Program-made: the position numbers and the translations under genes
Shown here: positions 11,275 through 41,231 of the stretch, piece by piece
How positions within the stretch are numbered: the first letter of the stretch is position 1
How the letters are laid out: each line of letters begins with the position of its first letter
Source of the DNA: Paracoccaceae bacterium
Lineage (GTDB): Bacteria > Pseudomonadota > Alphaproteobacteria > Rhodobacterales > Rhodobacteraceae
Assembly (NCBI GenBank): GCA_026709265.1
Contig: JAPOTI010000119.1
Location: 1 to 64,000 of the forward strand
Length of the DNA stretch: 64,000 nt
Direction of reading: 5' to 3'
Notes under the pieces: generated by a model
The model's database searches: none
What the model saw: the letters and a program-made list of their open reading frames with translations, nothing else
Told to the model about the DNA's origin: nothing

Positions 11275-12360
11275 TTGTTTGAGTTGTTGAGCGGCTTTGC
11301 TGAGGGCGGGGATATTTTCAATCTCTTCCGCTACATTACATTCCGCGCCAGTGGTGCTCTGCTCACGGCACTGCTCTTCGTTTTTATTTTCGGAAAACCG
11401 TTTATCAATTTTCTTCGGCAACGGCAGAAAAACGGACAGCCGATTCGTGAAGACGGCCCTGAGAGCCATATCGAGGGCAAGTCGGGAACTCCGACGATGG
11501 GAGGGATTTTGATCCTTGGAGCGATGATTATTTCAACGCTTCTCTGGGCGCGCCTTGATAATATCTATGTGTGGATCGCCCTGTTTGTGACCATTGGATT
11601 CGGGACCATCGGCTTTTTCGATGATTATCAGAAAGTGTCGCGGCAAAGCCACAAAGGACTCGGTTCAGGTATCCGGATCATCGCCGGAATCGTCATCGCC
11701 GGAATCGCTTCAGGTGCGGCGCTTTACGCCCATCCCGTTGAGTTGGCGGGTGCACTTGCCTTTCCGATTCTGAAAGATTTTCTTGTTGATCTCGGTATTC
11801 TTTTTGTTCCTTTTGCGGTGATCGTGATTGTCGGTTCAGCCAATGCAGTGAATCTGACCGATGGGTTGGATGGGTTGGCAATTATGCCGGTCATGATCGC
11901 GGCGGGCACCCTGGGGATTATCGCTTATGCCGTTGGGCGGGTCGACTTTACCGATTATCTTGAGGTCCATTATGTACCGGGAACCGGGGAACTCATGGTG
12001 TTTTCCGCCGGTATCATTGGTGGAGGCCTCGGATTTCTCTGGTATAATGCCCCACCGGCAGAGGTCTTCATGGGTGACACCGGATCGCTGTCGCTCGGCG
12101 GGGCAGTTGGTGCCATTGCCGTGGCCACCAAACACGAACTCGTCCTCGCGATTGTTGGTGGATTGTTCGTTGTTGAAGCCCTCAGCGTCATCATTCAGGT
12201 ACTCTATTTCAAGGCCACCGGCAATCGTATTTTTCTGATGGCACCGATCCATCACCATTTCGAAAAACGTGGTTGGACAGAGTCGCAGATTGTCATCAGG
12301 TTTTGGATCATCGCCCTCATTCTTGCGCTTGCCGGGCTGGCGACACTCAAAGTTCGCTGA
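11275..12360 (+). CDS. mraY: phospho-N-acetylmuramoyl-pentapeptide-transferase MraY
   Basis: A 361-residue polytopic membrane enzyme that transfers phospho-MurNAc-pentapeptide to undecaprenyl phosphate to make lipid I. Visible motifs are the cytoplasmic TPTMGG, the catalytic FFDDYQK pair of aspartates, [13 protein letters not shown], and the terminal [12 protein letters not shown]. It has about ten hydrophobic helices. The TTG start at 11275 follows a strong AGGAGG with an eight-base spacer. Its stop codon TGA shares its A with the ATG of murD, a tight coupling. Confidence 0.95.
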
Positions 12361-13745
12361 TGGGTATATTGGAGCATTTGCGAGGCCGCCGTTATGCAGT
12401 GCTCGGATTAGGACGTACCGGAACAGCGGCGGCGCATTTCCTGACCCGAATGGGGGCCGAGGTCTGGTGCTGGGATGATTCGGACACGGCGCGCAAACGC
12501 GCATGGGAGCAGGGCATCACTTTGCACGAACTGGGTGGAATGCGGGACTGGGATTCAATCGCGTGTCTGGTGGTCTCTCCCGGAATACCCTTCCTCTATC
12601 CGCAGCCTCATCCGATCGTCAATACGGCATTGCGCGCGGGTGTCCCGCTCGACAATGATATTGGATTGTATTTTTCGAATCTGCAGCAGATGTCACATCT
12701 GCCAACGACTGTTGCTGTCACCGGATCCAACGGAAAATCGACAACAGCGGCATTGATCCACTCGATATTATCGCATCTCAAACGTCTGTCGCGCCTCGTG
12801 GGTAATTTTGGTGAATCGGTTCTCGCCGGTGATCCGATCGAACCCGGCGAGACCGTGGTTCTTGAACTGTCGTCTTATCAGGGCGAACTGGCACGTCGGC
12901 TCCAACCGACAATTGCCGTATTTCTCAATTTCTCGGAGGATCATCTGGACCGACATGGGGGGCTTGGTGGTTATTTTGCGGCAAAGAGCCGGGTATTCAA
13001 CATGTCGTTGCCACAATGGTCCGTTGTCGGTGTCGATGAGCAGGAAGGGCACTTTCTGGCCGCGCAATGCCAGTCGCCACGATTGGTACGCATTTCTTCG
13101 TCGCAAGACCTGTCTCAGTTTGATGATGCTGTCTTTACCCGTGATGGCAACCTGGTTTCCCGCATGCATGGCCAATCCACCGTGATCTGCAGATTGACGG
13201 ACATGCCCGGCTTGAGCGGTCCGCACAATCATCAGAATGCCTGTGCGGCCTCGGCTGTATGTCATGCACTTGGATTGTCAAATCAGGAGATTGCAGCTGG
13301 ACTGTGTCGGTTCACGGGGCTGCCGCATCGGAGTCAGGTGGTTGGCCGATTCAACGGCATCTTGTGTATCAACGATTCCAAGGCGACAAATGCGGTCAGC
13401 GCCGGAATGGCTCTGGAAGCATTTCCCCGCATTCGCTGGATCGCCGGAGGGCTGGGGAAGGAAGGAGGAATTTCAATTCTGCAGAATAGGCTGAACAATG
13501 TGATCAAGGCTTATCTTGTGGGTCAGTCAGCACCGGAATTTGCTGCCCAGCTTGGAGCGACGCCACACGTGATCTGCGAAACCGTTTCGCGGGCAGTCGA
13601 ACTTGCATGGGGTGAAGCCAGAAACGGAGAGACGCTGCTATTCTCACCGGCGGCGGCGAGTTTCGATCAATATCCGGATTTTGAGGCGCGTGGAGATCAT
13701 TTTGTCAGTGAGGTCAAGCGCTGTTTCGCGCGCCCTGAATCATAG
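12360..13745 (+). CDS. murD: UDP-MurNAc-L-alanine:D-glutamate ligase MurD
   Basis: 461 residues from the ATG overlapping the mraY stop. An upstream in-frame start at 12273 would lie within mraY and is unlikely. It adds D-Glu to UDP-MurNAc-L-Ala. The N-terminal nucleotide-like fold has VLGLGRTG, the P-loop is VTGSNGKSTTAAL, the middle has FLNFSEDHLDRHG, and the C-terminal domain has NDSKATN. It is followed by the MITE-like element and then ftsW, the only point in dcw interrupted by a mobile repeat. Confidence 0.95.
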   Translation: MGILEHLRGRRYAVLGLGRTGTAAAHFLTRMGAEVWCWDDSDTARKRAWEQGITLHELGGMRDWDSIACLVVSPGIPFLYPQPHPIVNTALRAGVPLDNDIGLYFSNLQQMSHLPTTVAVTGSNGKSTTAALIHSILSHLKRLSRLVGNFGESVLAGDPIEPGETVVLELSSYQGELARRLQPTIAVFLNFSEDHLDRHGGLGGYFAAKSRVFNMSLPQWSVVGVDEQEGHFLAAQCQSPRLVRISSSQDLSQFDDAVFTRDGNLVSRMHGQSTVICRLTDMPGLSGPHNHQNACAASAVCHALGLSNQEIAAGLCRFTGLPHRSQVVGRFNGILCINDSKATNAVSAGMALEAFPRIRWIAGGLGKEGGISILQNRLNNVIKAYLVGQSAPEFAAQLGATPHVICETVSRAVELAWGEARNGETLLFSPAAASFDQYPDFEARGDHFVSEVKRCFARPES

Positions 13746-13808
13746 TTGCAGATCTTGTTGCACAGGGCTTAAATGAACTGAGACTCCAGCCTCCTCTCCA
13801 GCATCATT

Positions 13809-13909
13809 GGGGGCTTATAAAGATGAATTCGCATCCCGCATTATGTTGCGCCAGTCTTTCAATAAAACGCATCATGTCATATTCGGTCAACTGGTCTTTA
13901 TAAGCCCCC
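13809..13909. mobile_element. MITE-like hairpin element, copy 1, with target duplication
   Basis: A 101-bp element bounded by perfect 15-bp inverted repeats: GGGGGCTTATAAAGA at 13809-13823 and its complement at 13895-13909. ATCATT flanks it on both sides (13803-13808 and 13910-13915), which looks like a target-site duplication. A second copy is at 41132-41231; by hand alignment about 87 of 100 positions agree, including the interior. The interior continues the palindrome imperfectly, so the transcript could fold into a long hairpin around a central loop. It contains no transposase and would have to be mobilised in trans. It lies in the murD-ftsW gap, inside the dcw transcription path. Confidence 0.8.
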
Positions 13910-14029
13910 ATCATTGCCCAAGCAATTGCCAAAATGCACTTGAAAAAGCTTCCTTTACTGCTATGATCATGCACATTCGGCCGCCAAGAGTCGAAGAATG
14001 ATCGAGTTAAAATTTATACAGGCTGACGA

Positions 14030-15208
14030 ATGACAGATATCGTTCATGGGTTGACGTACAGGAGTGGCTGGGAGCCACTGTTGCCGCGTTGGACGCGCAC
14101 GGTTGACCATCCATTTCTTTTGGCAATCTTTGCATTGTTTTTCATTGGAATTCTTCTCTCCATCGTTGCGACGCCGCCTCTTGCTGAACGGGTGTCGTCA
14201 TCCGGCAGTTCCGTCTACGTCATCAAACATGTTGTATACGGTTCATTTGCGCTCGCCTTGATGTTTGTGGTGTCACTGATAAATCCGGTGAATGCCCGAC
14301 GATTGAGCCTTGGATTGTTCGGGATTTTCTTTGTGAGTCTGCTCCTGCTGCCATTGTTCGGCAGTGATTACGGCAAGGGTGCTGTTCGCTGGTATTCACT
14401 GGGATTTGGTGGAATTCAGCCGTCGGAATTTCTGAAACCCTGTTTCATAATGGCTTGTACCTGGTTGATTGCCGGTTCACAGCAGTCTGGAAGCCGTTGG
14501 GGTTACCTCATCTCTTTCCTCATAACCGTCTTCATTGGCGTTATGCTGATGATGCAGCCGGATTTCGCGCAGACCATCCTCTATATTTTTGGCTGGAGTG
14601 TCGTGTACTTTGTTTCCGGAGCGGCGCTTTGGCCACTCCTATTTCTCGCGGCAGCAGGCGTGGTCTTTGCCGTCTACGCATACAATAGTTTTGAGCATAT
14701 CGCGCACCGAATCACGCTTTTTACTGAAGGTTGCGAAAGTCCGAATTGCCAAACCAGTATTGCGGTGGATGCGATTCAACAGGGCGGGCAGTTCGGCAAG
14801 GGAATCGCTCAGGGGACAGAGAAATGGCACCTGGCTGACGGGCATACCGATTTCATCATTGCGGTCGCTGCCGAGGAACTCGGCTTCATCGCCGTGGTGG
14901 CCATCATTGCTTTGTTTGCATTTGTCTGCCTGCGTGCAATCGCATTGGTGAAAAAGGCCCGTGATCCGTTTATTCGGATTGCCGGTACCGGGCTTGCAGC
15001 CATGTTCAGCATTCAAGCATTTGTTCATTTCGCAGTTGCGGTCAGCCTCCTCCCGACGACTGGGTTGACTTTGCCGCTGATCTCTTATGGCGGCTCGTCG
15101 ATGGTCGCCACCGGCCTGACCCTTGGATTACTCCTGGTGCTGATCCGCGAGGCAAAGGAGCAACAGGACGAAGTCGCAGGGTTGAATGCGCAGTCAGGGC
15201 GCATTTGA
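14030..15208 (+). CDS. ftsW: septal peptidoglycan glycosyltransferase FtsW
   Basis: A 392-residue SEDS-family membrane protein with about ten hydrophobic helices. It polymerises lipid II at the septum together with FtsI. Characteristic segments are GAVRWYSLGFGGIQPSEFLK, the MQPDFAQT loop carrying the catalytic Asp, HTDFIIAVAAEELGF, and GLTLPLISYGGSSM near the C-terminus. ATG 14030 gives a 30-residue cytoplasmic lead. It is separated from murD by 284 bp including the MITE-like element, so it may rely on its own promoter, although I could not pick one out. Confidence 0.95.
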   Translation: MTDIVHGLTYRSGWEPLLPRWTRTVDHPFLLAIFALFFIGILLSIVATPPLAERVSSSGSSVYVIKHVVYGSFALALMFVVSLINPVNARRLSLGLFGIFFVSLLLLPLFGSDYGKGAVRWYSLGFGGIQPSEFLKPCFIMACTWLIAGSQQSGSRWGYLISFLITVFIGVMLMMQPDFAQTILYIFGWSVVYFVSGAALWPLLFLAAAGVVFAVYAYNSFEHIAHRITLFTEGCESPNCQTSIAVDAIQQGGQFGKGIAQGTEKWHLADGHTDFIIAVAAEELGFIAVVAIIALFAFVCLRAIALVKKARDPFIRIAGTGLAAMFSIQAFVHFAVAVSLLPTTGLTLPLISYGGSSMVATGLTLGLLLVLIREAKEQQDEVAGLNAQSGRI

Positions 15209-41131: not shown

Positions 41132-41231
41132 GGGGTTTATAAAGATGAATTGACATACCGCATTATGTCGCGCCAATCTTTCAATAAAAATGCAGCATGT
41201 TGTATTCTGTCAACGGGTCTTTATAAGCCCC
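41132..41231. mobile_element. MITE-like hairpin element, copy 2
   Basis: GGGGTTTATAAAGA at 41132-41145 and TCTTTATAAGCCCC at 41218-41231 form terminal inverted repeats with one mismatch. The interior follows copy 1 (13809-13909) closely, including CCGCATTATGT, TCTTTCAATAAAA and the GTCAAC segment before the right end. I see no clear target duplication here, so this copy may be older or degraded at its borders. It lies about 110 bp upstream of the SDR gene start. Confidence 0.78.

Follow-up and report, generated by a model that had tools for sequence, protein, structure and literature searches.

Members of the IS1595 family of insertion sequences encode a transposase with a DDE_Tnp_IS1595 domain and an N-terminal zinc finger, and they usually generate 8-bp duplications of their target (PMC8101967). 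Among short elements that lack such a gene, a useful comparison is offered by MITEAba12 of Acinetobacter. This MITE is approximately 113 bp long, ends in 16-bp inverted repeats and is present in multiple copies, 40% of which keep their target duplications; its mobilisation in trans by the autonomous ISAba12 has been proposed (PMC6382973). In addition, outward promoters with transcripts have been reported for it (PMC6382973).

Here, a MITE is described from the genome of a Paracoccaceae bacterium (assembly GCA_026709265.1). It was found in a stretch of 64,000 nucleotides (contig JAPOTI010000119.1, positions 1 to 64,000), hereafter the window, and it is a real, ordinary mobile element of a known kind. 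Like MITEAba12, it is short, has inverted repeats and occurs in multiple copies, and an insertion sequence is proposed to move it in trans. In contrast, the duplications of MITEAba12 are of 9 bp and its parent is different, while a consensus scan yields no outward promoter in the element described here. With the full-length IS1595-family members of Rhodobacteraceae, the MITE has in common the end GGGRNTTAYAAAGA-N4-TTGACA and the 8-bp duplication. Nevertheless, it is only 99-100 bp long, lacks a transposase, and has an interior that is not recognisable as that of a deleted known member. It thus adds to the IS1595 group a MITE family for which the end motif and the 8-bp duplication are defined.

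The element and its target duplication

The following features belong to the MITE and its insertion in the window.

13810..13908, forward strand: MITE copy of 99 bp, with boundaries set by a 20-copy alignment; 93.9% identical to the 100-bp consensus
13810..13823, forward strand: left terminal inverted repeat, GGGGCTTATAAAGA, matching the ends of full-length IS1595-family elements
13895..13908, reverse strand: right terminal inverted repeat, GGGGCTTATAAAGA, from the copy alignment
13802..13809, unstranded: left copy of the 8-bp target duplication, CATCATTG
13909..13916, unstranded: right copy of the 8-bp target duplication, CATCATTG
13828..13833, forward strand: decayed subterminal box, TTCGCA here and TTGACA in the consensus
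13885..13890, reverse strand: subterminal box of the right end, TTGACC here and TTGACA in the consensus
41132..41231, forward strand: second MITE copy in the window, from the genome search and copy alignment

A preliminary description of this DNA had placed a non-autonomous MITE-like element, flanked by a target duplication, between murD and ftsW. Both the location and the nature of the element are borne out, the latter by the 14-bp ends, the 8-bp duplication and the existence of 20 copies. Its dimensions, however, had to be corrected: the copy alignment reduces a claimed size of 101 bp to 99 bp and claimed arms of 15 bp to 14 bp, and a claimed 6-bp flanking repeat, ATCATT, becomes the 8-bp CATCATTG. 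The discrepancy arises because the duplication starts with CA and ends with TG, so that its own ends pair. In effect, the segments 13808-13823 and 13895-13910 are 100% complementary in the window sequence, the extra complementary bases being the ends of the duplication, and the terminal inverted repeats proper are perfect (14/14 bp). This copy is short and carries no transposase gene. The consensus element has a TTGACA box near both ends, whereas the window copy has no exact box on either side.

Copies in the source genome

A search of the whole genome (3.14 Mb in 144 contigs) with the element recovered 20 copies, the weakest at an E value of 2.5e-5. Within the window, the end motif occurs five times with up to three mismatches, as against 0.65 expected; the repeat family is far beyond chance occurrence. 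When the 20 copies are aligned with their flanks, they begin with GGGGCTTATAAAGA and finish with its complement. The 8-bp repeats that flank them are specific to each site: TTGCATTA, AATCCAAG, TTCGATAT, ATCTATAT, CTTTGTTA, CAAACGAA, ATATTTTC and TAACGTTC are found elsewhere, and CATCATTG at the murD-ftsW site. The duplication is perfect in 9/20 copies, and 2 further copies match at 7 of 8 positions. Identity to the 100-bp consensus is at least 96% in eight copies and 77-82% in six; the former group indicates that the spread of the MITE is partly recent. Most copies are intergenic, and they adjoin unrelated genes in varied orientations.

Two observations on individual placements may be added. 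On the contig plus strand lie 18 of the 20 copies (two-sided binomial, approximately 4e-4), a bias with no clear tie to gene strand or GC skew that is possibly due to chance. One copy is located within an integrase-like frame (Pfam Phage_integrase; L212, 5843-6640, forward strand), which stays open throughout: 100 bp plus the 8-bp duplication amount to 36 codons, and the consensus can be read without a stop in one frame.

Outside the source genome, BLAST found no copies of the MITE in 60 other genomes, including three congeners, and blastn against a plasmid collection gave no match. Similarly, a gapped scan for the end pattern gave no match in GTDB r220 contigs and viral contigs. As far as the collections searched go, this is a new family of an already known kind. 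The apparent burst in one genome, together with the absence from congeners, makes it suited to the study of how MITEs spread.

The murD-ftsW gap and the expression of ftsW

The surroundings of the insertion comprise the following features.

12273..13745, forward strand: longest open reading frame of murD (the true start may be internal), homologous to murD-like frames adjoining ftsW in relatives
13940..13967, forward strand: promoter-like site of ftsW, TTGAAA-N16-TATGAT, downstream of the MITE, from a consensus scan; a -10-like box stands at the matching place in relatives
13976..13995, forward strand: ftsW leader hairpin, TTCGGC(CGCCAAGA)GTCGAA; comparable hairpins precede ftsW in most family members examined
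14030..15208, forward strand: ftsW

The frame at 12273..13745 is one that, from protein sequence knowledge, we take to be murD. Between it and ftsW there are 284 bp, or 177 bp once the insertion and one duplication are subtracted. Comparison of this spacing with relatives, which had been suggested earlier, showed that the element is absent at the site in three congeners, whose gaps measure 113, 133 and 433 bp. Thus, murD and ftsW are not as a rule closely packed in this genus, and the claim that the element interrupts a normally contiguous site is not supported.

The promoter-like site begins 23 bp downstream of the end of the duplication. The consensus scan, which is weak evidence by itself, gave one such site against 0.5 expected in shuffled sequences. 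In most of 37 family genomes read by eye, ftsW is preceded by a -10-like box and, after it, a small hairpin. The stems of these leaders vary in sequence between genera while their pairing is kept, again as read by eye, with single-sequence hairpin scores that are not significant. There is no Rfam match to the region, and it is possibly an undescribed ftsW leader. It appears, from the sequence, that ftsW keeps its own promoter downstream of the MITE. The simplest reading would then be that the insertion is tolerated because ftsW is independent of read-through from murD. The case also suggests that gene clusters essential for cell division can accept insertions of this type if a promoter of its own serves the gene that follows. 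As a side observation, the -10-like box and the short hairpin lie at 13962-13995 in the window and, in relatives, in loci L139-L146 and L231-L256; the hairpin is of the type CAGACCCGGAAAACGGGC and is usually followed by GAGGCAG.

A strong hairpin is predicted for an RNA copy of the MITE (-36.7 kcal/mol, z -5.5), as had been anticipated together with an effect on read-through into ftsW. The predicted hairpin stands, while the proposed effect is weakened by the promoter-like site and leader downstream and by the lack of a terminator: no terminator-like site with a T-run was found on the coding strand, and the hairpin was consequently rejected as an intrinsic terminator. The effect of the MITE on ftsW is probably small. 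It might be proposed instead that the element now controls murD-ftsW expression, having been recruited as an attenuator or cis-acting RNA hairpin, given the strength of the predicted fold and the position 5' of ftsW, between two genes that run in the same direction. This is unlikely, as such a hairpin follows from the inverted repeats, the copies adjoin unrelated genes in varied orientations, and the element is absent from congeners; the missing T-run and the position of the promoter-like site downstream also speak against it. That the MITE has been recruited in this species to uncouple murD transcription from ftsW, whether as an RNA hairpin or as a spacer with a regulatory role, is very unlikely.

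Relationship to the IS1595 family

Related ends were sought in 100 genomes of relatives as the MITE end plus the internal TTGACA box, allowing up to three mismatches. Only 2/100 gave matches, Rhodobacteraceae bacterium COS4_bin_11 (a MAG and congener) and Aestuariivita sp. CAR2_bin_10. In both, a transposase gene follows the matching end within approximately 70 bp. Both transposases have the DDE_Tnp_IS1595 domain and the IS1595 zinc ribbon (Pfam PF12762 and PF12760), although the zinc-ribbon match of the second is slightly under the Pfam cut-off. The NCBIfam IS1595 model NF033547 recognises both.

A scan of GTDB genomes with the congener's transposase gave 44 loci. Where the transposase is at least 69% identical to that of the congener, the left end of most elements agrees with the MITE end at 17-18/20 positions, while the best match in shuffled sequences reaches 13-15 of 20. 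More distant transposases have different ends, for example GGGAATTATATAC. Of the elements in which both ends are readable, perfect 8-bp duplications surround the full-length L171, L173, L177, L180, L184, L188 and L197; in a few further elements, a matching duplication is missing (L170) or shifted (L201). Autonomous relatives with common ends are found elsewhere in the Rhodobacteraceae, also within the same genus. The 8-bp duplications and the transposase domains agree with what has been published on the IS1595 family (PMC8101967). In two closely read full-length elements, TTGACA is followed 17 bp on by TATATC or TATACA, so that it resembles a -35 box belonging to the transposase promoter. The MITE retains the TTGACA boxes in its consensus but not the remainder of that promoter region, and its interior has no match past the first 30 bp in the full-length elements fetched.

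Origin of the insertion

These observations make it very probable that the MITE was moved in trans by an IS1595-family transposase and inserted into an existing murD-ftsW gap, probably with near-neutral consequences. A transposase with matching ends would have bound the approximately 24-bp ends of the MITE (GGGGCTTATAAAGA-N4-TTGACA) and mobilised it, with insertion into an AT-rich target and duplication of 8 bp. One copy would have landed in the non-coding sequence that already separated murD from ftsW, at a distance of 23 bp from the promoter-like site downstream, and was presumably tolerated there.

Two other origins may be weighed against this one. The element could be a MITE of another transposase family that also makes 8-bp duplications, its IS1595-like ends having arisen by convergence; that no cognate IS1595 element with these ends was found in its own assembly would fit, but agreement at 17-18/20 end positions, including TTGACA at a fixed spacing, together with an equal duplication length, makes this highly improbable. 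A dispersed intergenic palindrome of the REP/BIME kind, spread by a route other than transposition, would likewise be short, palindromic and mostly intergenic. Clean 8-bp duplications at 9/20 sites and ends of transposon type contradict such an origin, and its probability is close to nil.

With mobilisation by an IS1595-family transposase as the preferred reading, the proposed search for a full-length parent succeeded as regards the class, identified in relatives, while the source assembly itself yielded no full-length element whose ends are exactly those of the MITE. This assembly has five IS1595 domain matches, which were rejected as parents: the ends nearby are of the sister types GGAGCTTATATACATAGG and GGGAATTATATACGAAAGTGCC, or none were found. 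The cognate element may have been lost, may lie in an assembly gap, or may have been active in the past.

A second set of repeated ends, starting with GGRGCTTATATAC, was also noted in L099 (1-1010), L081 (2086), L078 (2504), L098 (2711) and L100 (558). Some of these ends adjoin IS1595 transposase genes or remnants of them, and in L099 they lie between apparent tRNA genes. Finally, DNA methyltransferase-like genes adjoin IS1595 transposase genes in L135 (124-1407, forward strand) and L080 (2051-2989, forward strand), possibly as passengers.
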